Shown here one piece after another: positions 5,964-23,184 of a DNA stretch of 64,000 nt. The stretch is from Vibrio penaeicida (lineage in GTDB: Bacteria; Pseudomonadota; Gammaproteobacteria; Enterobacterales; Vibrionaceae): the NCBI RefSeq assembly GCF_019977755.1, contig NZ_AP025145.1, positions 1,488,001 to 1,552,000 on the forward strand. The letters are read 5' to 3'. Made by a program: the position numbers and the translations under genes. The first letter of the stretch is position 1. Every line of letters starts with the position of its first letter. Below the pieces are notes generated by a model. The model was not told the DNA's origin. It was given only the letters and a program-made list of their open reading frames with translations, and did not search any database.

Positions 5964-6398
5964 ATGACCAAGCAATCAAAGAGCTCAAATGTAGAAGTTG
6001 AGCCTAAGAAAAATGATTCCGAGCAATTAGCGCAAATTCAACACCTTCTATTTGGTGAACGAGCCGAATACATTGAAACCGCTATTGAGGATCTTTCTGA
6101 GCGAACAAATCAAACCTTTATACAGATAGAGAAAAAATTGGATGCCATTAATCTGCAAATATCCAAGCTGGCAGACTCTTTAGAAGGGCTCGCTCAAACA
6201 AGCCAACAAAGCAACAGCAGCCTCGAGATGCACTTTACTCAGGAAGTGGGAGAACTATCTCAACAGCTTCATGATAAACACGAAGAAGCCCTCAATAAAA
6301 TTGACAGTGTTTCGGAAGACCTGAAAAACAACAAAGCGGATAGAAAAACATTAGCGACACTGCTTTCTACCATGGCCGAAGATCTCGATGGGAATTAA
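5964..6398 (+). CDS. Small coiled-coil protein, first gene of the GTPase/OmpA operon
   Basis: The 144-residue, highly charged protein has no signal peptide or membrane segment and is largely helical with heptad-like spacing (FIQIEKKLDAINLQISKLAD), so a coiled coil is likely. Near residues 24-35 it has QHLLFGERAEYI, which echoes the start of the next protein (LRSLVLGEQYENAL). GGGAG precedes the ATG at 5964. Its TAA is followed at once by the ATG of the next gene, which indicates translational coupling. I do not know the family by name. An adaptor joining the cytoplasmic part of the OmpA protein and the GTPase is an inference from context. Confidence 0.65.
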   Translation: MTKQSKSSNVEVEPKKNDSEQLAQIQHLLFGERAEYIETAIEDLSERTNQTFIQIEKKLDAINLQISKLADSLEGLAQTSQQSNSSLEMHFTQEVGELSQQLHDKHEEALNKIDSVSEDLKNNKADRKTLATLLSTMAEDLDGN

Positions 6399-8363
6399 AT
6401 GATCAATCGGGACAATTCGAAAATTGAGGAACTTCGTTCCTTAGTGCTTGGAGAGCAATACGAAAACGCTCTTAATGATTACATCGATAAAAATGACGAA
6501 ACCGGTCGCGTGGCGGACGTCATCGTAGAAGCTATTAAGCAAAGAAATCAAAAAGATAACAAGGTCACTGAAGAACTTTCTCCCATCATCGACAGCGCTA
6601 TCGAAGTTTCCATTAACAACAACACGCAACGCTTCGCGGATATTCTTTACCCAGTCATCGGTGCCGCTGTGCGGAAATCGGTCAGCGCCACTTTCAACCA
6701 ACTGGTTAACTCTCTCAATCAAGTTTTAACCCAAAACTTCAGTTTAAAATCCATCAAATGGCGCTATCAAGCATGGCGACAAGGCATCAGTTACGCCCAA
6801 TTCCTCTTAATGAAAACGTCTGTCTTTCAGGTTGAACAGGTGCTTTTGATCCACAGGGAAACGGGGCTTCTACTGAATTCAGTCGCAAATGAAGGAACGG
6901 AAACCAGCGATCCAGAACTTGTTTCCAGTATGCTCACGGCCATTACTGATTTTGTATCCGACTCCTTTAGTAGCGACAGTAATGACACATTAGAAGGTGT
7001 TAGGCTTGGCGACTTACTGCTCAAGATTGAGGTCGCTCCTCATGTCATATTGGCAGCTGCCGTTAGAGGGATCCCAAATCAGCTGGTCGACACCACTATT
7101 TCCACCACTGTCGAAAAAATCGAGCAAGATTTCTCCGACACGCTAGTGCACTTCAGTGGCGACAATGAAGAGTTTGCCTCTTCGGCTCCTCTGTTAGAAA
7201 GCTGCTTACTTAAAAACACACTCGAAGATAACGCAAAAGAGCGCTTTCCATGGCGGCTATTTGCAGTGTTGCTGGTTTTCATTGTGGTCGGGTTATACAA
7301 ACTATTTGTTCATATTAACGTCAGCAACGAACATGACATCACTCGTCAAGTCTTTGAGTATGAACCTAATTATTTGATTGTCGAATCCATTATTCAGGAC
7401 GAAAACATCGCCCTTTCTGTACTTCGTAAACCAGGTTCACGAGCGCCGAGTGACATCTTAGAAAATATTAACTACCTTCACACAACCCAAGCGGTTGACG
7501 ACAAAGTCGTTGATTTCAGTGAATCGGGTGAGTTACCTCAATACAATCTCACCATTATAGATGTGGTGAGGCATAACCTCATTTCCTCTTTAAGTGAGGG
7601 AGAATCTGCTCGTATTTGGCTATCTGATCGCACCGTTAATGTTTCTGGTGAATTAAAGCCAAATACATTGGAACAACTCAAACGCTACATAACAAAAATA
7701 GACGACAGCCTTACGCTGTCTGTCCAAGGTGTAACCCTACTTCCTTCAGAGCCTACAGCATCAGAGCAAATGGAAAGAGGATTTCTTCAACAGCAACTCA
7801 CAAGTTTGATTGGTGATGGCGAAACCATCGCTTTAGATTTTGAGCAGGATAAGGTTTCGCTATCAGGTGAAGTTTACCCAGAGACACTAGACAAAATTCG
7901 TCGCTATTTAAGCCGCAAGGAGTTAAGCCTTGGTGTAGAAATGTCGGCTCTAACGACGCTTACAAAGTCACCCGATTTCCAAAAACAATATGACCAACTC
8001 TCTCTATTACTGAATCAAGTTCGGTTCCAATACGAGCTCAACGTGGTTACCCCAAAAAATGACAAATCAGAGATGGTAAGGTTTGTGAGCCAAGCAAAAT
8101 CACTTATACAGCTCGGGGAAACACTTAATCCACCACTTACGCCTATATTTATAGTGACGGGGTATTCCGACGATATTGGTTCCAAAGAAAGAAACATTCA
8201 GCTAAGCAAACAAAGGGCGTCCAATGTTAAACAAATCATGGTGGATAATGGCATCAATGAAAACCACATTATTACCCTAAATATCAGCAATATAGAGTCA
8301 ACGGAAAGTATCTCATCTGCATTAAGAAGAGTCACTATAGATGTGATAAACAAGGATTTGTGA
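6399..8363 (+). CDS. Inner-membrane protein with longin/roadblock-like cytoplasmic part and C-terminal OmpA domain
   Basis: The protein has 654 residues. Residues 1-280 are cytoplasmic by charge. Within them, about 144-225 shows a conserved pattern (VEQVLLIHRETGLLL, SSMLTAITDFVSDSF, LGDLLLKIE, AAAVRG) that looks like a longin/roadblock-type sensory fold. One transmembrane helix lies at about 287-306. The periplasmic part has two short beta repeats ending SGELKPNTLEQLKRY (about 412) and SGEVYPETLDKIRRY (about 484). It ends with an OmpA/MotB-like peptidoglycan-binding domain (TGYSDDIGS at 587-595, then LSKQRASNVK). There is no signal peptide, as expected for a single-pass anchor. The GTPase gene starts 16 bp downstream. 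The longin assignment is inference; the OmpA domain is clear. Confidence 0.8.
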   Translation: MINRDNSKIEELRSLVLGEQYENALNDYIDKNDETGRVADVIVEAIKQRNQKDNKVTEELSPIIDSAIEVSINNNTQRFADILYPVIGAAVRKSVSATFNQLVNSLNQVLTQNFSLKSIKWRYQAWRQGISYAQFLLMKTSVFQVEQVLLIHRETGLLLNSVANEGTETSDPELVSSMLTAITDFVSDSFSSDSNDTLEGVRLGDLLLKIEVAPHVILAAAVRGIPNQLVDTTISTTVEKIEQDFSDTLVHFSGDNEEFASSAPLLESCLLKNTLEDNAKERFPWRLFAVLLVFIVVGLYKLFVHINVSNEHDITRQVFEYEPNYLIVESIIQDENIALSVLRKPGSRAPSDILENINYLHTTQAVDDKVVDFSESGELPQYNLTIIDVVRHNLISSLSEGESARIWLSDRTVNVSGELKPNTLEQLKRYITKIDDSLTLSVQGVTLLPSEPTASEQMERGFLQQQLTSLIGDGETIALDFEQDKVSLSGEVYPETLDKIRRYLSRKELSLGVEMSALTTLTKSPDFQKQYDQLSLLLNQVRFQYELNVVTPKNDKSEMVRFVSQAKSLIQLGETLNPPLTPIFIVTGYSDDIGSKERNIQLSKQRASNVKQIMVDNGINENHIITLNISNIESTESISSALRRVTIDVINKDL

Positions 8364-8379
8364 GCATAAGAGGCCACAC

Positions 8380-8880
8380 ATGAAAGCAAAGAAGATCTGC
8401 ATGATTGGCGCGTTTGCCGTAGGGAAAACCAGTTTAGTTCGGCGTTTTGTCGAAAGTATTTTCACTGAAAAGTATCACACGACAATTGGTGTGAAAATTT
8501 CGAAGAAATTTATCGATTCAACGCCAGAACCTGTACAACTGCTGGTTTGGGATATCGAAGGAAAAGACGTGTATACCAACATCAATGTTTCCTATTTGAG
8601 AGGAGCATCTGGCGCGATGTTGGTTGTCGATGGAACCCGCCCAGACAGTCTGGAAGTGGCCAACGAGCTAAGAACACTGATCAGTGACAACTGCAATGAT
8701 ATTCCGGTTGTATTGATGCTGAACAAATGCGATTTGGAAGACGATTGGGTTATCGGACCAGACAAAATAGCCACACTAGAACAAAAAGTCTCTACCTTGT
8801 TTAAATCCAGCGCAAAAGATGGAAAAAACGTTGATGAAGCGTTCCAAAGATTAGCCGAATTGATGCTGGAACGTGATTAA
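8380..8880 (+). CDS. Small Ras/Rab-like GTPase
   Basis: This is a 166-residue single G domain with all five motifs: P-loop GAFAVGKT (10-17), switch I Thr in HTTIGV (Thr35), DIEGK (58-62), NKCD (115-118) and SAK (144-146). The numbering runs close to human Ras. Two features are unusual: Phe and Ala occupy the Gly12 and Gly13 positions, and Lys62 stands where Ras has catalytic Gln61. Low intrinsic GTPase activity, or dependence on a partner, is therefore likely. It lies between the OmpA-domain gene and the GGDEF-EAL gene, 16 and 15 bp away. It probably acts as a switch at the inner membrane, analogous to MglA, but orthology is not claimed. Confidence 0.88.
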   Translation: MKAKKICMIGAFAVGKTSLVRRFVESIFTEKYHTTIGVKISKKFIDSTPEPVQLLVWDIEGKDVYTNINVSYLRGASGAMLVVDGTRPDSLEVANELRTLISDNCNDIPVVLMLNKCDLEDDWVIGPDKIATLEQKVSTLFKSSAKDGKNVDEAFQRLAELMLERD

Positions 8881-8895
8881 GCCGAGGACAACACC

Positions 8896-11067
8896 ATGAA
8901 CCACTTAGAAGCAGTATTGACGTCTTTAAATTATGTTGTCCTACTGCGAAACCAAGACAAGACCTTTACGTTATTGAACCCTTGCGCTAATTGGTTTAGT
9001 GAACTCTACTATGATCAAACCGAAACTAAGTTTGATGCTAACCTCATTGACCTATGCCTTGCTTTTCCCTTCATCGAAAATTTCATCATTGATGCCGACT
9101 CCGTTTGGTGCAAACCTGAATCAGAAGAATCCATCAGCTCTGGAGTCTGGACTGAATCTAATGCAGAAGGAGAAGAGATTCAACTGACTGCCATTGCTTC
9201 GAACAACAACAATTGCAATCTACTCATTATCGAAAATCGAACCGAGCATTTCAAAGTAGAGCAAGACATGATGCAAAAGGCTCGGGACATTGCATTACTT
9301 AATGAAAAACTGGTGACAGAACTTAATCATAGACAGCGAAACCTTCAATCGGACATTGCCCAATTATTTGATGAAAATGCCAGTATGAAAATCATCGGTG
9401 ATGCGATCAAATCTGAGCCCGCGGCCGTGATCATTTTCAACTCCAAGAGCAAAGTGCTAAACATCAATAATGAGTTTAAAAAGCTTTTCCAAATAGAGGA
9501 TATCGCCAGCTCTCAGCCTTTGGCACTGCTTGAAAGATGGTGTGGAGAGGCAGAGCCCATTTATCCGGAAATGAATCGTGTATTAACCGCAGGCTCTTAT
9601 TGGGAAGGCGAGTTCTCCACTCGAACCATTAGAGAACAAAAACACTTTATTCGGCTGAATATTGCACCGATTAAAAACGAACGTCAGCAAGTGACACACT
9701 TTGTTTGTATCATCCACGATATTTCAAACCTTCGCCTAGATGAAAAGCATGACAGTACAAATTACACTGGTTTTGAATACACCACCCAACTGCCCAATCG
9801 GCGCTATTTTTGGCGGAAAATTCAAGAAAGGGATAAAGCATCTCGGAAAAACAAAACGACCTATTCCGTGTTGTATATCGACTTAGATTACTTTAAACGC
9901 ATCAACGACAAATTTGGGTTTGAACAAGGAGACAATGTTCTAAAGCTCATTGGTTCGCGTATTTCGAGATGTGTAAAACAAAAAGACTTTGTTTCTCACC
10001 TTGGTGGTGATGAATTTACCATCATCGCGTTTGGTGCTGCCGAACAGCTTAAACCCATGTCGGACAGGCTCCGTAGGTCGATCAGCGAACCCGTATTGAT
10101 CGACGAAACGTCCGTTAGTATTACAGCCAGTATCGGTATTGCCACCATCGAGGATTCAATCAGCCTTGTGGAAGTGGTAAAACATTCTGATTTAGCCATG
10201 TCGTCGGCGAAAGAGCTAGGAAGAAACCAATGCCGTATTTACACCGAACAGCTGGATCTCACGTTTTCTCTTAGGCTGCAACGTGAACATGATATTCATG
10301 ATGCGATTAAAAACGATGACTTTCATTTGCTATACCAACCTAAAACGAATGTTAATGCCAGCGACGAATTTAACGTTGAGGCACTCGTGCGCTGGGAACA
10401 CAACACAGAAGGCACGATTTACCCTAACGACTTCATACCCATTGCCGAAGATTCAGGTCAGATCATTCCTTTAGGTCGTTGGGTTCTAGAACAAGCCTGT
10501 AATGATGCCAAAACGCTGCTTGATAAAGGCATAAACATTCGAATGGCAGTGAATGTATCAACGAAACAGCTCAAGCACCCCGACTTCTTTAATCACGTAG
10601 TCAAGGCATTGGAGAAGAGTGGATTACCATCAGAAAACCTAGAGCTAGAAATAACAGAGAGTGGTTTGCTTGCAGATATAGACTCCATCCTTGATGTGCT
10701 GCATCAAATCCGACAACTCGGAGTCACCGTCGCGCTTGATGATTTCGGCACTGGCTTTTCTTCACTCAACTACTTACGCCAAATGCCCGTTGATTTTATT
10801 AAGATCGACAAAGAATTTGTTGACGAATTGCCAGCTAATAATCAAAGCATGCTGATCACTACATCTCTTATAGAACTCGCGCATAGCTTAAATCTTAAAG
10901 TGATCGCAGAAGGCGTTGAAACGCTAAAGCAACTCAAATGCCTCACCAATGTGAATTGCGACTACATTCAAGGCTACTACTTCTACAAGCCCCTTCCGTT
11001 TAAGCAACTGGAACTGGCTTACAAAACCGAAATGGATGAGAAGCGGATAGTAAAATCAAGCCCTTAG
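8896..11067 (+). CDS. PAS-GGDEF-EAL cyclic di-GMP enzyme
   Basis: The 723-residue protein has two PAS-like N-terminal regions (about 1-115 and 165-280) joined by a coiled segment. A diguanylate cyclase domain follows with intact GGDEF at 370-374. Its product-inhibition site is degenerate: KQKD stands in place of R-x-x-D five residues before GGDEF. The phosphodiesterase domain has intact EAL at 495-497 and DDFGTGFSS from 615. Both activities are possible. There is no signal peptide or membrane segment. It is the last gene of the four-gene operon, which suggests that the GTPase or OmpA sensor controls c-di-GMP turnover. That link is inference. Confidence 0.88.
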   Translation: MNHLEAVLTSLNYVVLLRNQDKTFTLLNPCANWFSELYYDQTETKFDANLIDLCLAFPFIENFIIDADSVWCKPESEESISSGVWTESNAEGEEIQLTAIASNNNNCNLLIIENRTEHFKVEQDMMQKARDIALLNEKLVTELNHRQRNLQSDIAQLFDENASMKIIGDAIKSEPAAVIIFNSKSKVLNINNEFKKLFQIEDIASSQPLALLERWCGEAEPIYPEMNRVLTAGSYWEGEFSTRTIREQKHFIRLNIAPIKNERQQVTHFVCIIHDISNLRLDEKHDSTNYTGFEYTTQLPNRRYFWRKIQERDKASRKNKTTYSVLYIDLDYFKRINDKFGFEQGDNVLKLIGSRISRCVKQKDFVSHLGGDEFTIIAFGAAEQLKPMSDRLRRSISEPVLIDETSVSITASIGIATIEDSISLVEVVKHSDLAMSSAKELGRNQCRIYTEQLDLTFSLRLQREHDIHDAIKNDDFHLLYQPKTNVNASDEFNVEALVRWEHNTEGTIYPNDFIPIAEDSGQIIPLGRWVLEQACNDAKTLLDKGINIRMAVNVSTKQLKHPDFFNHVVKALEKSGLPSENLELEITESGLLADIDSILDVLHQIRQLGVTVALDDFGTGFSSLNYLRQMPVDFIKIDKEFVDELPANNQSMLITTSLIELAHSLNLKVIAEGVETLKQLKCLTNVNCDYIQGYYFYKPLPFKQLELAYKTEMDEKRIVKSSP

Positions 11068-13927: not shown

Positions 13928-14269
13928 CTAAGGACAACCACTTAGTGGACAGATTTCAATCCAGCGTAAATCTTCAGAGTTACCCCATAGATGACAGGTT
14001 CCTAGCCCTCTTACGTTCGCCAGCGTTTTATCAGCTGCAAACGCAGTTAGAACAAGAGAGGCGTGCACACTATCTTTGTGAACAGAAAAGCGGCCAGTCG
14101 TCGCGCAAGCAGGGCGATTAGATTCTGAGTTACCGGCGATATTAAACAAGATTGCATCATTAACCGACGCAATATGAACAATCTTTCCACCTTGGCTGTT
14201 TCCAACCGCGAACACTGAAGAACTAAACAATAAACCAAACAAGACTAATAAATATTTATTCATTTCCAT
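13928..14269 (-). CDS. Small exported Cys-containing protein, array member 5
   Basis: The 113-residue protein has a signal peptide (YLLVLFGLLFSSSVFA). It follows the plan shared by all five members: a GGKI...I opening, a Cys in the middle (ACATTGRF), then a helix rich in Leu and Ala (SLVLTAFAADKTL) and a second Cys (GTCHLW). Extra Cys residues follow near the end (EICPLSGC). The function is unknown. It is the last gene of the array downstream of the toxin/immunity genes, 20 bp after the previous member. Confidence 0.7.
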   Translation of the reverse strand: MEMNKYLLVLFGLLFSSSVFAVGNSQGGKIVHIASVNDAILFNIAGNSESNRPACATTGRFSVHKDSVHASLVLTAFAADKTLANVRGLGTCHLWGNSEDLRWIEICPLSGCP

Positions 14270-14289
14270 TTTCCCAATTGACGTTAATT

Positions 14290-14604
14290 TTAACCGGCTG
14301 GATCAAACTGAGTAACTATGCAGTACCCTGTCCCATTTTCCCGACCAGCGACATAAACGGTTCCTGATGTTTTACCTGCTGCCCATGCTGTTAACACAAC
14401 AGAAGTAATTGCCGTATGTTCCTGCTTTATCTTCATCCAGCCATAGGGGGAACCCGCGCATTTCGAAGGTAACCCTGAATCCATCATAATCATAATGCCT
14501 GAAGTCACAGCGGTAAGGTTACTGATTTTGCCCGATTTGTAATAATCGGAAGCAAATGCGCCAAACGGCAAAAACAATAGAACGAGCCAAGCCAACTTTT
14601 TCAT
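14290..14604 (-). CDS. Small exported Cys-containing protein, array member 4
   Basis: The 104-residue protein has a signal peptide (MKKLAWLVLLFLPFGAFA). The mature part reads YYKSGKISNL, then KCAGSPYGWM, VVLTAWAAGKT and GYCIVTQFDP. This matches a widespread family of short secreted proteins of unknown role that I have seen in other proteobacteria but cannot name. The two Cys residues are placed as in its neighbours and probably form a disulfide. Of the five it is the most typical of that family. Confidence 0.7.
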   Translation of the reverse strand: MKKLAWLVLLFLPFGAFASDYYKSGKISNLTAVTSGIMIMMDSGLPSKCAGSPYGWMKIKQEHTAITSVVLTAWAAGKTSGTVYVAGRENGTGYCIVTQFDPAG

Positions 14605-15784: not shown

Positions 15785-16771
15785 CTATTGGTTGCCTAAC
15801 ACGTGTTCCAGATCGAACACGGGAGGATTGGCGAGGACTTCCTCACGGGTTGGACCTTCGCCTTTGATGACCCATTCAGGGATATAGTCACTTTGAAAGG
15901 AGACCGTTTTCCCTGTGTGTCGGTAATGTACCGCAAGAAATGCCATGATGTGATGATGGATGTATGCCTCTGAGCCAAATAAATCGAGAGACTCATCACC
16001 TTTTTTCTGACCAGGTTGAGGTGCAAAGTAGGCATAGTATTCGTAATTTGCCTCCATAGCTGCTTTGACTGTGGTATCCAGATCCGTTTTGTCGTAACCC
16101 CAAGAGTGCGCAACAATGCTGTAAAGCGGCATAAATAGAAACTGGTAATAGCGCTCTACAAATTCTTCAGATTTCGATTCAATCACACCCATTTGCAAAT
16201 ACGGATACAAATTATCCATCAAAGCATCGCGAACGCTTTTATCTTGCTCGTTTGCGAAATACGCCTTAAACAAGTCAAAAAAAGCTTCACACACCTCGGG
16301 GACCGGAGACGTCATTGCACTCTTAAAGTCGGAAAAAGCAAAGTCTAAGATCTCCTTCTTACCTTCTTCAAAGCCAAGTAAGGTGTTTAGGCATAATCCT
16401 GTTAAATAAAACTCTAAGTTTATAAGCGAGTCCTCTCCAGCCAATAACGTAAGTTCTCGTCCCATATTGCTCACAGTAACTTCCTGCTCGGCACGCCGAT
16501 GTATGCGCAACACCATTTGGTAGCATTCCGCAACATAAGTTAGAAGATACTGGCAGTGGTAATCAGAAATACCTAAAATAAGAGAATTTGCCCAAGAACC
16601 ACGCTGACCACAGTCGCATTTAACGGCGTTTTGATACAAAGCGGAAGTGAATGTTTGGTGGAAAAACTCATCTATGTCATGTAATTCATCGCACAAATCC
16701 TCTACTTTTGAATTATTCCAGCCTTTGGATTCAAGATGTCGCTTGTAATGATTTTGGTTAAAATCAATCAT
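15785..16771 (-). CDS. Probable immunity protein for the upstream nuclease toxin
   Basis: The 328-residue protein is predicted all-helical, with no signal peptide or membrane segment, so it is cytoplasmic. It starts inside the stop codon of the toxin gene (ATGA at 16771-16768), the tight coupling usual for toxin-immunity pairs. If the toxin is a PoNe-type DNase, the expected partner is a PoNi protein of the DUF1910/DUF1911 type. The length and helical content would fit, but I cannot confirm the family from motifs. The role is inferred mainly from position. Confidence 0.6.
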   Translation of the reverse strand: MIDFNQNHYKRHLESKGWNNSKVEDLCDELHDIDEFFHQTFTSALYQNAVKCDCGQRGSWANSLILGISDYHCQYLLTYVAECYQMVLRIHRRAEQEVTVSNMGRELTLLAGEDSLINLEFYLTGLCLNTLLGFEEGKKEILDFAFSDFKSAMTSPVPEVCEAFFDLFKAYFANEQDKSVRDALMDNLYPYLQMGVIESKSEEFVERYYQFLFMPLYSIVAHSWGYDKTDLDTTVKAAMEANYEYYAYFAPQPGQKKGDESLDLFGSEAYIHHHIMAFLAVHYRHTGKTVSFQSDYIPEWVIKGEGPTREEVLANPPVFDLEHVLGNQ

Positions 16772-19700
16772 ATTGTCGGTACCTCAATTCCATCTTGCTT
16801 ATATGCCGTAATTGTCAGTTTTCCTAGATTACCACTGCTGTCAATACGCTGATGCACCACCTTGTATTCCAGCCTCCCAGTTCTGACAGCATTTTTTATT
16901 GCTCTCATTGTCCTTTTAAGCGCAGGGTCTTGTGTTTCTTGGTATCGCTTGGCCATATGGGTAAGCATGCTATTTGTATAATCGCTATGCCCCTGCTCAA
17001 AGCGCTCATCACCAACCTTGTGAGAGGATTTACTTGGCGTTGCATTTACCCCAGCTTTTGCCTCCACTATCGTGACTTTGCCGTTGCCGTCGACATAAAC
17101 TTGGTCGAACTGGTAGTTCCCTCCATTTTTCTGCCCTGTTGCTACAGTGGCTAGTGGTCTACCCCAACCTTTGTCTGAAGCGACCTGCTCTGCCGCTGCT
17201 TCACCAATTTGAGAGGCATAGAACTTCGCTTTCGCCGCTTCGTTGACTGGGTTGGCACCATTTAGTGTATTAGTATCCGTTGTTTCAGAAAGGGCTTTCG
17301 CTTTGTTTCTTTCTTCTAGAAGTTCGCCAACCGTCATGGTACGTGTCTTGTCGTTTAACGGTCCATTGTCGATATTTTTATACACCTCAAACTCGCGAGA
17401 TTTGCTATTTAATACACTGGCATCAATGTTAATAGTTTCAGGATCACCGATCGTAGCCCCTTTCTGCGGCACAATGTTGTCTCTAGTGACAAAATTATTA
17501 CAGGTTGGGTGATAATTTTGCTGTTCACAGAGTTCTTTATATCGCTCTGGATGCATTTGGGAATTTGGAGTATTTTGTTGATATTCCCTGTAAGAATCCC
17601 ACTCCGTATCCGACATACCTTTTGGTTTAACGATATTGTTTCCATTGACCTCGATTGGTTCATGGACGGCTTTACCTGTAGGTTCCACTTTTCCAGTTTG
17701 CGGATTCTCAGCAAAGCTAAGTTTGAGCTCATCAATATGATGCGCCAGATCGGGGTAATCCTCCTTCAGTTTGTCGGATACTTTATCGGCAAGTTTTGCA
17801 AATGGAATCTTTTTACCCGCTACGTTAAGCCCTAGCTCAATGGCTAGATCTAGGAGAAGATCATATGGGTTAAGTTTCTCCGCACCTTTGTAAATTCTGT
17901 AGAATTTCTTGAGGGTTTGCCCTACTTCGTAGGCTGTCAGTGCTGCATTGGCTAGTAATGCGGCTTTTATCAAGAATGGGATCAAGAAGAAAGCGTTATT
18001 CTGCGCGGCATTTCCGCCCGCTTGCGCCCCAATATTGGGATCACCACCAGCGGCAAACACTGTGATTCCAGCAACAAGCTTCGAAATATTGACCCCTTGT
18101 TTACGAAGGTCTTCCAGTTCAGCTTGTTTGCGCTTTAAATACTCGTTACCACTTATGCCTTCTGTAGACTCAAGCTCTCTTAAGGTGTCAGCCGTAAAGT
18201 TACTTACTTCATCTTCAAGTGCTTTAGTTTGTTTTTCCAATTCAGGGCGGTAATGTTCATCAGCAATAAATTCACCAATCACTCCTCCTAGAGCCCCCGC
18301 GCCACAATCTGCTTGTACTTGGTCGCGATCCCCCCCGTTTACAGTAGTTACCAACGCACCTAAGCCACAACCAAGTGCGGCATGTGAGATATATTTAGTA
18401 GCAGCATTAATAGGATCTTCGCCTGTTTTATTACCTTGAGCGTCAACACCTTTGGCAGCCATACCAATTTGGTTCGCAAGGTTCTTACCGACTGTGGCTA
18501 CAGCAGCCTGACCGATGGCATTAAGTGCCACTTTATCTAGGTCATCCACATGCGTGAACCCATCGCCAGACAACAGGCTATCAACATTTGCAGCGACAAC
18601 AGAGTGCAACACCGCATTGGTTGCCTGAGTTGTCCATTTCGCAACCTCTCCTGCGTCACCAATAAAGTCTGGAACAACGTTATCAATAAACTCTGAACCG
18701 GCGACTGATTGCTCTACAGACTTATTAACATCTCCCATTAGAGAGGTATCTATATAGTCCATGACGCCGGCTGTAACCATGGCTGTGGCTAGATTACTGA
18801 AAGATTCAGAAGAAGCCATTTCACTCAATACATCACTAGGTGATTTACCCGCAAGTAACCCAGACATTGCTTGATTTGCCATGGCGTTCAGACCAGCATT
18901 AAGCGCACTGTACAATGCACCTTGTAATCCTGTTGTGCCAGCACCCAATGTCGCTATCCCTGCACCGCCAGTAGCCGCTGCCACCGCTAACGCAAGAATC
19001 GCCATACCTGCCGGAGTTAAACCTTTATTGTCATAATCCCATGTTTCCGCAACAGCCTTGATTTTTTGCCACTCAAGGCTCAGCTCAGGATTAGCTGCAA
19101 TGGTGTCTTCCGCCGTTTGGATCCAAGACATGTCCGGAGATTTCTTGAGTAACGCTAAGGTGTTATCAAAGCTGCTTGGGTCGCCAATAACTTCGATGTT
19201 GATACCAGAGCCGGGTTCCAATACCAAACCACCTTTGGTTACGAACTGGTTGTAGTATTCATACTGCTTCGAGAAACCTTTGCCTGCATTTCTAAAGGCA
19301 AGTTGCCCTTCATAAGACTCCGTTTCATTCTTCTCGTGATTCTCTAGATAGGCTTTGAAGTTAATCGTGTCACCTGCAAGAACTTTGGTTAGCCCTTCAC
19401 TTTCTAGGTTTACAGCTTGTAGTGTAACTGGACCAAACTCCGAGCTTATGATCAGGCTATGACCAGCCTTTAGCATGGTACGAACGATATTTGCTCGGCT
19501 TTCCGATTCAGAGCTTTTTTCTGTCGTTCCAAATAAACCACTGCTGCTGGCTTCAAAGGTTTTCTGGTAGCTAGAAGTATCTGTTGCTGCAACCAGAACA
19601 ATGCCCATATCAGCAAGCAGTTCTAGAATGCCTTCACTTTCGATAAGCGCACCTTCGGCATAAATTGCTTGCTTAGAAACGATAGAGAGTAAATCAACCG

Positions 19701-20910
19701 CAGAAAGCTTAGTTTGAATGTTCTTCAACGAACTGGAAGAGTCCGTCCACTTCTCACCTTGCTGGGCATGCTGTTGTCTTACTGCCTTTGGTAATAGCTG
19801 AACCGTACCGTTCGCTTTGATTTGGAGTGTACCGTCCGAATTTAAAATACCTCCTGAGACAATAACATCACCAGCACTTTGGATTTTTAGGCTATCAACA
19901 CCGGTAATCGTCGCTAGTTGCCCTGCAAGCTCAGAAAAACCATGCTCGTAGTTGTGGCGGTATACTAGCGTTTCGTTAAGGATTTTATCAGCAATTAGTT
20001 GAGTTTCTCGTCCACCGATAAATCCAGATAAGTTTTCAACCTCACCTGCGCGGACAATCAACTCTCCTTCTGCGGATACATTACCTCTGCGATTGACAAA
20101 CTTATTGTATGCTCTGATATACAGATCCCGCTCAGATAAAACGTTGCTGCCATCCACATAAAAATTATGTGTTTTAATGATCCCTGATTGGATGTCTAAG
20201 GTTGTATTAGTTACCTTCGTACCTAACGTTGCTTGAGTTAGGTAGACAAACGGGATCACAATTTCTTGTCCTGTAGTCAGCTCCCTTATTTCTGGCCAAA
20301 TCATGTCTTTGGGTAGAGCGTTTATTTGCGCCTGTGTTAAGTTTTGCCCAAATTTTACAGTTGGATTTTTCTTAAACCACTCCAAGCCATTCTTGTACAA
20401 CAGGCGGATCATACCGTTGTAACCCTTGTCCGAAGGCTGATCGCTTAACGCTCCCACTGAAATGTAACTACGATTAAGAAGTTGGTTCAGTTGAAGCCGC
20501 ACAACATCGCGTTCCACATAAGGCGTACCGATAAATTTTGGCTTACTCGGTGCTTTGGGAATAAATGTGGTGATGTCGCCTACGTTGATCGGAATCCACT
20601 TCATTCCATCGAATTGTATGGCATTATTTTGAGTGGCATTCGCATAGAAATAACTAAACCCATCAAAGATATCGGGGATTGGATACGGGAAGATTTCTTT
20701 GTATGTATAGTTATTATTACTAGGCGCAATCTCTAAACGTGCGGCCGCGTTTAACGAGTCCTCTAGCAGTGTAACGTCTTTAGCAAACTGTATACCCGCG
20801 TAAACTGGCATACTCCATTGAGCTGCTAACGTTACCAGTAAAACATTCGCCGTGAATTTTTGAGGGTTGCACTTCATTTTTGGAAGAGCATTCTTGATTA
20901 ATTTTTTCAT
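16768..20910 (-). CDS. Haemagglutinin-like contact toxin with DUF637-type region and C-terminal PoNe-like nuclease
   Basis: The 1380-residue exported protein has an extended signal region ending SMPVYAG. About 250-620 is beta-helix-like haemagglutinin repeat (for example SGGILNSDGTLQIKA). About 630-800 is a small-residue-rich segment (GLTPAGMAILALAVAAATGG) typical of DUF637 haemagglutinins. The last 200 residues carry a PD-(D/E)xK nuclease pattern, QFDQVYVDGNGKVTIVEAK, with Asp1269, Glu1283 and Lys1285, then EQGHSDYTNSM. That arrangement matches PoNe DNase effectors known from Vibrio. The TPS targeting domain is not in this protein but in the gene 12 bp upstream. The immunity gene overlaps its stop. 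Confidence 0.75.
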   Translation of the reverse strand: MKKLIKNALPKMKCNPQKFTANVLLVTLAAQWSMPVYAGIQFAKDVTLLEDSLNAAARLEIAPSNNNYTYKEIFPYPIPDIFDGFSYFYANATQNNAIQFDGMKWIPINVGDITTFIPKAPSKPKFIGTPYVERDVVRLQLNQLLNRSYISVGALSDQPSDKGYNGMIRLLYKNGLEWFKKNPTVKFGQNLTQAQINALPKDMIWPEIRELTTGQEIVIPFVYLTQATLGTKVTNTTLDIQSGIIKTHNFYVDGSNVLSERDLYIRAYNKFVNRRGNVSAEGELIVRAGEVENLSGFIGGRETQLIADKILNETLVYRHNYEHGFSELAGQLATITGVDSLKIQSAGDVIVSGGILNSDGTLQIKANGTVQLLPKAVRQQHAQQGEKWTDSSSSLKNIQTKLSAVDLLSIVSKQAIYAEGALIESEGILELLADMGIVLVAATDTSSYQKTFEASSSGLFGTTEKSSESESRANIVRTMLKAGHSLIISSEFGPVTLQAVNLESEGLTKVLAGDTINFKAYLENHEKNETESYEGQLAFRNAGKGFSKQYEYYNQFVTKGGLVLEPGSGINIEVIGDPSSFDNTLALLKKSPDMSWIQTAEDTIAANPELSLEWQKIKAVAETWDYDNKGLTPAGMAILALAVAAATGGAGIATLGAGTTGLQGALYSALNAGLNAMANQAMSGLLAGKSPSDVLSEMASSESFSNLATAMVTAGVMDYIDTSLMGDVNKSVEQSVAGSEFIDNVVPDFIGDAGEVAKWTTQATNAVLHSVVAANVDSLLSGDGFTHVDDLDKVALNAIGQAAVATVGKNLANQIGMAAKGVDAQGNKTGEDPINAATKYISHAALGCGLGALVTTVNGGDRDQVQADCGAGALGGVIGEFIADEHYRPELEKQTKALEDEVSNFTADTLRELESTEGISGNEYLKRKQAELEDLRKQGVNISKLVAGITVFAAGGDPNIGAQAGGNAAQNNAFFLIPFLIKAALLANAALTAYEVGQTLKKFYRIYKGAEKLNPYDLLLDLAIELGLNVAGKKIPFAKLADKVSDKLKEDYPDLAHHIDELKLSFAENPQTGKVEPTGKAVHEPIEVNGNNIVKPKGMSDTEWDSYREYQQNTPNSQMHPERYKELCEQQNYHPTCNNFVTRDNIVPQKGATIGDPETINIDASVLNSKSREFEVYKNIDNGPLNDKTRTMTVGELLEERNKAKALSETTDTNTLNGANPVNEAAKAKFYASQIGEAAAEQVASDKGWGRPLATVATGQKNGGNYQFDQVYVDGNGKVTIVEAKAGVNATPSKSSHKVGDERFEQGHSDYTNSMLTHMAKRYQETQDPALKRTMRAIKNAVRTGRLEYKVVHQRIDSSGNLGKLTITAYKQDGIEVPTI

Positions 20911-20922
20911 ATTGATGCTCTC

Positions 20923-23184
20923 TTAGAAGTTACCGTAAGTGATAGTACCTGAAGTAATAGTTCCCTCTTCATTTCTCTCGGGCGTTGCAACACCTGTTAC
21001 ATCAAATACACCCGAACCCAAATAGAAAAATGCAGGCACCTGATCGGTATTTTCTAGCGAAACCAAATACTGCGAAGATGTTGTCCAGCGATGTGTACTT
21101 CGGCGTACACACCACCTCCACACTCTCTTTGAGCAATAGGTTCTTGAGTGGTGGTATATTCGTGTCCCTATCACTTTTTTACGAAGTGTTAAACCAAAAT
21201 TCTCGAATGCAGTTAAGCGACCTTGCATACCACCAAGAACTTCAAAATTCCCTGCTAGATTGCTAATTTTGTTGCCCTTAATATCAAGATTGTGACCTAC
21301 CAATACTCTTGCTACTGGACTATTGGCTGCCAACCATTGCACATTTTGATTTGACGTATTGTGGGTTCGGCCAGCTATGTAATACCGATGATTCTCAAAT
21401 AGTGGTGTTGTAAGAGCAAAGTCCCCATTCAATACCTCTAGACTTCCTGAACCATTTTGTAGCGACGTTGAAGCCTCAATTTGCAACGTATTTTCAGCAG
21501 AAATCGATACTTCATGAGAATTTTCAATGGTTGTTAAGTCATCGGCTGGATCACTGTTCGTATTTCTCGCTCCGCGATTATTGTATTCGTTGATGTCTTT
21601 GAACAAGTCCAGTCTCGGGTTGGAATTGATCACTTTGGGCGATTTCAAAGCAATATTAAACCCAAAAATATAAGCTTCACGCTCTGTCGTAGACCAATAT
21701 TTCCTACTGCCTACAGGGCAAGCTTGTACTTTACGGCTCATGATAGTGCCTGCACCGATACCTAAATCCACTTTATCGCTAGGAATATGTAGGCCGGCTC
21801 CATATGCCTGATATTGTTGTGGTAAGCAATACCAAGGTTCACTTTGTCCATTTTTGATTTCTAAACCAGACGAAAGGTAAACATTGTTCCCGACTAGCAT
21901 GCCTCTGTTTACATTCACCAACGATAAATCCGCTTGAATAAAAATATCTCGACTTGCGAAAATTTCACCACCAGCTTTCCAATTGAAGTCATCACCATCA
22001 GGTTTCCCTGCGTTATAGAAATTTTTTGCGCTTAGACGTACATCACCGGCTGTTATTAAACCACCGTTGTAGATATTGTCCTTAACCGCAAACGATACCG
22101 AGTCAGCATCAATGCTAGCTTTCTGAAAGGAGTCGCTGGAAGAAGGTGAAATGTATAAATTGCTACTATTCAATGCCACCTTTGAGGGAGAAACGATGGT
22201 TGAATCTAGTAATGTGATTGCCCCATACGAGGTAAGTTTGATCGAACCAAATGGGATCACAGACTTATCTTTATGTGAACCCACAATAGAAATATCAGCT
22301 TTGGTATTCAAAATAGGCAAAGCTGAACTGGCAAGGGTAATATCACCGGGTGCATGAATGTAAAGACTGCCAGCGTTGATGTTGCGATCAATCGTTAACG
22401 TGTTGTTTTTGCTTCCACCATTCCATGTCGACTCCAATGTCTCGTAGTCGACAATGTAATCCCCTACGTTGATTCGAAGATGGGTTTGGGCGGCAACGTG
22501 GCTTCCATTTGAATCCAGAGTATAACCACCACCGCTAAGCTTTTTCACTTTTACAAACGTATCGATGGGTGCATATTGAACAAACCTCTCACTGACCAAA
22601 TCAATAATGTCGGCATCGGAAGTGGTTAGCCCATTGCCTTGAATGGTTATGGTGCCATTCTTTGTTGTGATTTCTTGATGGTTATTGCTTAAAGAGCCTG
22701 CGGCGAGCGTGACTCTCCCAGCGTTTTTGAAGTTACATGAATCGCATACAATCCCTGAAGGGCTCACAAACAATAGGTCGCTTCGTTTACCTAACACCTC
22801 GATGTTACCAATCACCATCGGCTGACTAGACAGGTTTTCGATGATCGTGAGGTTAGAGGGCTCAATAAGCTTTGAATTAATCTTCGGGTTGTTGTTGATA
22901 TACAGGGTGTTGAATCTGTTTATGAAATGGGAAAACTGAGTTCGACTGAAAGTCACATTTTCTTTTGTTTCAGGGTAAATGTAATTTACCCTAGCTCCAT
23001 CTGAAGTTTTTTCCGGTCTAACGCTTCCTTGTTTCACGCCAATTACTGTGTCAGCGGGGACATAACCTTCCCCAGCAGAAGTAAGCCCAGTGGGAAACAA
23101 TAGGATAACGGAGGCGAGGCAAGCGGCTACTTTGTACGAGATTCCCCTACGTTTAAACTCAACTGACTTGGTTATTTTCTTCAT
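20923..23184 (-). CDS. Filamentous-haemagglutinin-type protein with TPS domain, short form
   Basis: The 753-residue protein has an extended signal region (YKVAACLASVILLFPTG). A TPS secretion domain follows, with the diagnostic segment VSPSGIVCDSCNFKNAGRV (about 140-160) corresponding to the N-P-N-G-I / Cys-x-x-Cys region of CdiA-like exoproteins. After that come beta-helix repeats. Near the C terminus is an Arg/Cys-rich patch (YCSKRVWRWCVRR). It ends with no toxin domain, and the next gene starts 12 bp later, so the two genes look like one exoprotein split in two. No TpsB transporter gene is in the window. Confidence 0.78.
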   Translation of the reverse strand: MKKITKSVEFKRRGISYKVAACLASVILLFPTGLTSAGEGYVPADTVIGVKQGSVRPEKTSDGARVNYIYPETKENVTFSRTQFSHFINRFNTLYINNNPKINSKLIEPSNLTIIENLSSQPMVIGNIEVLGKRSDLLFVSPSGIVCDSCNFKNAGRVTLAAGSLSNNHQEITTKNGTITIQGNGLTTSDADIIDLVSERFVQYAPIDTFVKVKKLSGGGYTLDSNGSHVAAQTHLRINVGDYIVDYETLESTWNGGSKNNTLTIDRNINAGSLYIHAPGDITLASSALPILNTKADISIVGSHKDKSVIPFGSIKLTSYGAITLLDSTIVSPSKVALNSSNLYISPSSSDSFQKASIDADSVSFAVKDNIYNGGLITAGDVRLSAKNFYNAGKPDGDDFNWKAGGEIFASRDIFIQADLSLVNVNRGMLVGNNVYLSSGLEIKNGQSEPWYCLPQQYQAYGAGLHIPSDKVDLGIGAGTIMSRKVQACPVGSRKYWSTTEREAYIFGFNIALKSPKVINSNPRLDLFKDINEYNNRGARNTNSDPADDLTTIENSHEVSISAENTLQIEASTSLQNGSGSLEVLNGDFALTTPLFENHRYYIAGRTHNTSNQNVQWLAANSPVARVLVGHNLDIKGNKISNLAGNFEVLGGMQGRLTAFENFGLTLRKKVIGTRIYHHSRTYCSKRVWRWCVRRSTHRWTTSSQYLVSLENTDQVPAFFYLGSGVFDVTGVATPERNEEGTITSGTITYGNF

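Follow-up and report, generated by a model that had tools for sequence, protein, structure and literature searches.

A conserved OmpA-GTPase gene set of the Group 1 Rup kind in Vibrio penaeicida, with a predicted longin domain and interchangeable output enzymes

In a stretch of 64,000 nucleotides of Vibrio penaeicida DNA (contig NZ_AP025145.1, positions 1,488,001 to 1,552,000 of the forward strand; hereafter the window), four adjacent genes encode a probable coiled-coil protein, a transmembrane OmpA protein, a Ras/Rab-like GTPase and an enzyme with GGDEF and EAL domains. On the basis of its gene neighbors, its motifs and the missing catalytic glutamine of the G3 motif, the set is assigned to the Group 1 Rup GTPase systems, a known, experimentally uncharacterized kind of which it is a real and conserved member. 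Across genomes, the output enzyme encoded behind the OmpA-GTPase pair is interchangeable, with most outputs sharing one of two N-terminal domains, termed N1 and N2. A longin domain, a fold that serves to switch Rab proteins in animals and yeast, is predicted in the OmpA protein, and we propose, with a probability of about 0.55, that this protein sets the nucleotide state of the GTPase, which would control the output enzyme through its N1 domain. The features, in window positions, are as follows.

5964-6398, + strand: open reading frame (ORF) 1, 144 aa, probable coiled-coil cytoplasmic protein, first gene of the operon
6399-8363, + strand: ORF 2, 654 aa, OmpA/longin transmembrane protein, based on Pfam, an AlphaFold2 model, structural matches and homologs
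6825-7214, + strand: predicted longin domain of ORF 2, residues 143-272, probably cytoplasmic
7251-7310, + strand: probable single membrane span of ORF 2, about residues 285-304, a hydrophobic run seen by eye (model helix 285-321)
7998-8351, + strand: OmpA-like peptidoglycan-binding domain of ORF 2, residues 534-651
8380-8880, + strand: ORF 3, 166 aa, Ras/Rab-like GTPase, Group 1 Rup type
8896-11067, + strand: ORF 4, 723 aa, output enzyme, N1 domain - PAS - GGDEF - EAL
8896-9345, + strand: N1 domain of ORF 4, residues 1-150, PAS-like fold and long helix, candidate GTPase-binding domain
9274-9276, + strand: invariant Gln127 of the N1 domain, from the profile alignment

Results

The four-gene set and the Group 1 Rup neighborhood

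The four ORFs are separated by 0, 16 and 15 bp, as an initial annotation of this DNA had stated, and the identities it gave to the last three products agree with Pfam matches to OmpA at residues 572-626 of the 654-aa protein (E 1.9e-9), to Ras in the GTPase (E 8.4e-33), and to PAS_9 at residues 176-277 (E 2.1e-7), GGDEF (E 2.8e-35) and EAL (E 6.4e-72) in the ORF 4 protein. The ORF 1 product is probably a coiled coil, judged by eye; its Pfam scan gave no match above the curated cut-off and 22 below threshold. Several distant loci also encode an ORF 1-like protein (phmmer, E<=1e-3) immediately 5' of OmpA, with L035 (5.3e-14) and L041 (5.8e-15) as examples.

The Group 1 Rup system was described computationally by Wuichet and Søgaard-Andersen in 2014 (PMC4316618). 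In the available portions of that paper, the GTPase gene neighbors those for a coiled-coil protein, for a protein with a conserved domain, a membrane helix and an OmpA domain, and for an output protein; the GTPase lacks the G3 glutamine, an invariant glutamine lies in the N-terminal region of the output, and a signaling complex is proposed, together with the idea that the glutamine is supplied in trans. The V. penaeicida set shares the OmpA membrane protein, the GTPase without G3 glutamine and the glutamine-bearing output, its first product looks like a coiled coil by eye, and a diguanylate cyclase/phosphodiesterase fusion such as the one found here is one of two typical outputs in that description. 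At 166 aa, the GTPase lies within the Group 1 range of 150-240 aa, with motifs G1 to G5 complete (GAFAVGKTS, WDIEG, NKCD, SAK) and an aspartate in G3. Lys62 occupies the position of the catalytic G3 glutamine; of 71 GTPases whose residue could be read at this position in the alignment, 0 have glutamine. Switch I and the next segment are near-invariant in the 120 best relatives. The OmpA protein carries the conserved domain, an inner-membrane helix (by sequence and model) and a C-terminal OmpA domain, and the output is a GGDEF-EAL protein with Gln127, which is likened to the glutamine of the paper by description and may not be the same residue.

Two differences from the available description stand out. 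The conserved domain of the OmpA protein, of unknown function in the paper, is predicted here to be a longin, and whereas the main text of the paper names diguanylate cyclase/phosphodiesterase and histidine kinase outputs, class III nucleotide cyclases and HD-GYP proteins are also found here; neither the fold nor these outputs appear to have been recognized for the Rup system in the sources available. The initial annotation had been aware of no described function for the combination of genes. The combination had in fact been on record since 2014, although it is true that no Rup GTPase had been experimentally characterized at that date, with the GTPase-activating protein (GAP) unknown and one Nostoc punctiforme Rup gene shown to be transcribed, according to the same portions (PMC4316618).

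The OmpA protein recurs with 97% and 95% identity in two V. penaeicida records, and carriers identified by name in the host family include V. penaeicida, V. nigripulchritudo, Vibrio sp. S9_S30 and SCSIO 43132. Strains of Reinekea and Alkalimarinus are further carriers, both marine. Of 197 genomes of the host family, 122 have a match to the OmpA protein at E<=1e-3; among the matches listed, all except that of its own genome fall in the OmpA domain. The GTPase gave a single match in its own genome at the same threshold. A phage origin was considered and rejected, a phage collection having given no match to the GTPase. Promoter and terminator scans remained at chance level (9 promoters against 11.6 expected; 7 terminators against 5.2 expected).

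The GTPase is conserved beside the OmpA gene and the output varies

In order to define a genome sample, an OmpA profile of 94 rows was searched at E<=1e-25, with matches in 30 genomes from the class-level set of 369 and in 50 from the phylum-level set of 398, each count including the own genome; three genomes were common to both sets, leaving 77 distinct genomes. One locus per genome was examined, second matches being left out, and adjacency and output domains were counted with phmmer. The GTPase gene lies directly downstream of the OmpA gene in 70 of the 77 genomes, so that the conserved neighborhood, a check set in advance by the initial annotation, is present. Measured from stop to first possible start, the median distance between the two genes is -4 bp (n=68), and it is at most 50 bp in 62 of 68 loci.

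Within 2.6 kb downstream of these 70 pairs, the output is a class III nucleotide cyclase in 31 loci, a histidine kinase in 20, an HD-GYP protein in 7 and a GGDEF-EAL protein in 5, counts that are not natural frequencies: a single family, f207, accounts for 29 of the 50 phylum-search genomes and for 25 of the 31 loci with a cyclase. Two further loci encode an N2 domain without a recognized catalytic part. N1 or N2 was found in 58 of the 63 outputs with a catalytic domain, the other five being kinases. Among 27 proteins scanned with Pfam were 25 fourth-gene products (23 from the 77-genome sample), and each of these 25 returned the output type assigned to it. Cyclic di-GMP (c-di-GMP), which the locus sets in the reading of the initial annotation, is just one of several outputs across loci.

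Four plasmid records also matched. The Mesorhizobium sp. WSM1497 plasmid is annotated in its record with the order OmpA, Rab family GTPase and adenylate/guanylate cyclase, and the plasmids of Rhizobium sp. 007 and Nostoc sp. UHCC 0926 carry the system unannotated. In one genome (loci L177, G480, and L076), a GTPase-kinase pair and the OmpA/longin gene are on different contigs, which suggests that the two halves can separate. A distant branch of OmpA-longin/GTPase loci (L165, L167-L170 and L091-L093) has the G3 motif WDTDG; a histidine kinase is encoded downstream in some of these loci and no recognized output in others.

Outputs share the N1 and N2 domains

The ORF 4 protein matched HD-GYP proteins and kinases with which it has no catalytic domain in common, and alignment placed the similarity in the first ~150 residues; the same kind of N-terminal domain precedes a nucleotide cyclase, an HD-GYP domain, a histidine kinase or GGDEF-EAL. 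Profiles of N1 (11 rows) and N2 (29 rows) were searched in 369 whole genomes at E<=1e-5, with up to 10 candidates scored in each genome. N2 was found at 22 places and N1 at 13, in 32 proteins because three carry both, and a GTPase adjoins 29 of the 32. Outside the profile-building set, a GTPase adjoins 8 of 11 such proteins, some of them close kin of profile members. All copies of N2 (51 of 51) and of N1 (14 of 14) carry a glutamine where the linker helix starts (65 of 65, near-identical copies counted).

N1 and N2 are probably related but separate domains on sequence comparison; treating them as one family was tried and given up. Comparison by hhalign gave 69.7% probability (E 4.2e-5, 114 columns), and earlier comparisons of groups spanning both types, in which the HD-GYP set also contained L072, were uneven (15, 21, 29 and 74%). 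The N1 model, built from 10 sequences (predicted local distance difference test score, pLDDT, 80.0), is PAS-like and continues into a 48-residue helix, its structural matches being weak. N2 and N1 stand in tandem in L070, L072 and L073, and tandems ahead of an HD-GYP domain or histidine kinase occur in L182, L187 and L189 (and L204, L205, L203). The N2-cyclase proteins of L192 and L193 have no adjacent GTPase in the fetched stretch; a GTPase elsewhere possibly serves them. A protein search with the N1 domain recovered only 9 proteins from 210 candidates. That each of the 9 has GGDEF-EAL says little on output swapping, because the length window of the search excludes short HD-GYP outputs.

The ORF 4 protein finds its best NCBIfam match in DibA, a phosphodiesterase model, at 422.9 bits against a cut-off of 980. 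By eye, its EAL residues (EAL, NVS, EITES, DDFGTGFSSL, IKID, AEGVE, QG) and GGDEF motif are intact, and the inhibitory RxxD site reads KQKD. The output at this locus is probably c-di-GMP breakdown.

A longin domain is predicted in the OmpA protein

In the AlphaFold2 model of ORF 2, strands 143-152 and 158-163, helix 172-189, strands 200-203, 206-212 and 216-224, helix 228-250 (broken at 245) and helix 257-267 follow the bb-a-bbb-a-a order and overall fold of longins, and VIA-align superposes residues 143-272 on longin domains. Confidence in the model is uneven, the predicted template modeling score of the whole 654-aa protein being only 0.36 and pLDDT falling to ~60 at residues 181-200. Structural matches include Fuzzy, with which Sec22b ties, and the roadblock protein MglB; longins rank ahead of MglB and cover one helix more. 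The longin/roadblock-like region of the initial annotation is accordingly kept as a predicted longin fold, with an extent of 143-272 in place of 140-230 and with coverage by longins reaching further than roadblock. A demonstration by sequence alone was attempted and abandoned, Pfam scans of 25 homologs being inconsistent in this region. The longin region would be cytoplasmic and the OmpA domain, which YfiB structures match, would lie beyond the single membrane span. That bacteria have longin-superfamily domains was already on record, longin/roadblock being tabulated as present there in the available part of a published paper; the assignment of one in the OmpA protein was not found in the open-access literature searched, as far as its available text goes. 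In the same literature, the Rup name recurs in two other papers, once in one and twice in the other.

Other features of the window

On the - strand, two adjacent ORFs 12 bp apart (16768-20910 and 20923-23184) resemble parts of one two-partner-secretion exoprotein, the 753-aa product with a TPS secretion domain and the 1380-aa product with DUF637. Also on the - strand, 13928-14604 encodes two neighboring small proteins (113 aa and 104 aa) whose N-termini look like signal peptides by eye; the 113-aa protein had no Pfam match at E<=1e-4.

Discussion

In the mechanism that we favor, the 654-aa protein would cross the inner membrane once, its OmpA domain holding the peptidoglycan and its longin domain facing the cytoplasm. 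The longin domain would act on the adjacent Rab-like GTPase, probably as a dimer with the coiled-coil protein as a scaffold, and most likely as its guanine nucleotide exchange factor (GEF), a role suggested because eukaryotic longin GEFs do so. The state of the envelope or cell wall would thereby shift the balance of GTP and GDP on the GTPase, which would bind the N1 domain of the ORF 4 protein and switch its GGDEF-EAL output, at this locus probably the breakdown of c-di-GMP. The order of receptor, switch and effector is proposed because of topology, domain identity and the sharing of N1/N2 by otherwise unrelated outputs. As the GTPase lacks the catalytic glutamine and Gln127 of N1 may stand in for it in trans, the effector might terminate the signal as well, an idea already put forward in the 2014 paper.

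Eukaryotic longin pairs are Rab GEFs whose first longin domains carry the activity, according to the available portions of the source (PMC6864590), and in those of the Rup description the eukaryotic Rab, Ran, Ras and Rho proteins strongly resemble the Group 1 Rup GTPases (PMC4316618). As in Inturned-Fuzzy with Rab23 and Mon1-Ccz1 with Rab7, a longin domain is paired here with a Rab-type GTPase. The ORF 2 longin matches Fuzzy and the closest sequence to the GTPase in the PDB is Rab23 (98 bits), although this double match may be coincidence, Rab3C following within 7 bits (91 bits) and Sec22b tying with Fuzzy. The eukaryotic GEFs differ in being heterodimers with three longin domains per subunit, as far as their available description goes, in contrast to the one longin of a transmembrane OmpA protein here. 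A peptidoglycan-binding OmpA domain is likewise tied to c-di-GMP in YfiBNR. There, the OmpA-like YfiB controls a diguanylate cyclase via a periplasmic inhibitor, without a GTPase.

Several observations weigh against the proposed longin-GTPase-N1 control. Only one of 25 homologs gave a Pfam longin match, a weak one (Intu_longin_3, E 0.022). In three of the 77 genomes (L076, L078, L159) the OmpA gene lacks an adjacent GTPase; the four other misses end at a contig end. Five of the 70 OmpA-GTPase loci have no recognized downstream output, one of them at a contig end, and three N2 proteins, a kinase (L181) and the N2-cyclases of L192 and L193, have no GTPase beside them. Finally, the distant branch (GTPase E ~1e-24 to 1e-30) keeps the OmpA-GTPase pair while lacking both N1/N2 and the G3 glutamine, and therefore glutamine supply in trans is not universal; a test for compensation was unsupportive, no distant GTPase regaining the G3 glutamine where the output is without the domain.

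The serious rival retains the same module with the longin domain acting as a GAP or as a scaffold or passive membrane tether; the GTPase would then be activated through spontaneous exchange or by the coiled-coil protein. It finds support in the available text of a paper in which longin/roadblock domains are mainly GEFs and occasionally GAPs (PMC10933270). We give it well short of an even chance, since the invariant glutamine suited to GAP action sits in the ORF 4 protein and not in the longin protein, and since its canonical longin topology is the one that Rab GEF subunits show in their first longin domain, in the portions of the source available (PMC6864590).

It is unlikely that the GTPase-OmpA pair and the ORF 4 enzyme are merely co-transcribed, with the enzyme under the control of its own PAS domain. 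The protein does have its own PAS_9 domain, and in two f35 genomes the kinase and OmpA genes are on different contigs, the GTPase being with the kinase in one; yet co-transcription by itself leaves unexplained why N1/N2 occur almost only beside a GTPase, in 29 of 32 cases and across unrelated enzymes.

MglA/MglB of Myxococcus and the actinobacterial conservons, in their available descriptions, also encode a small GTPase with a longin/roadblock-superfamily partner, the conservons adding a signaling protein, but these consist of an MglA-family GTPase and a roadblock protein, and a transmembrane OmpA anchor is not described there. A polarity device of the MglA/MglB type, a reading by analogy that follows the initial annotation, is very improbable. 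In its favor, the longin fold is akin to roadblock and the structural matches include MglB; against it, the GTPase is by sequence closest to Rab23 among solved structures, the available survey text holds 0 Rup genes coupled to MglB (PMC4316618), and the roadblock family Robl_LC7 (PF03259) gave 0 matches at E<=1e-3 in the whole genome in a search whose control was positive in 3 of 14 genomes.

With the odds clearly against it, we tentatively raise a broader possibility, that bacteria own a full relay of receptor, exchange factor, Ras/Rab-type GTPase and effector, with a peptidoglycan-anchored transmembrane longin GEF and one small N1/N2 domain supplying the glutamine. If true, c-di-GMP enzymes, nucleotide cyclases and histidine kinases could all be put under the same GTPase, and longin-Rab regulation would reach beyond eukaryotes and archaea into bacteria, in which it may be older than the eukaryotes. 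The predicted longin gives the system a regulator, and the N1/N2 domain an effector, that can be put to the test, and an exchange of output enzymes behind a single conserved domain would be a clean case of modular signaling. As Group 1 Rup proteins resemble eukaryotic Rabs and are encoded with a putative longin partner, the system would bear on the origin of Rab-longin control.
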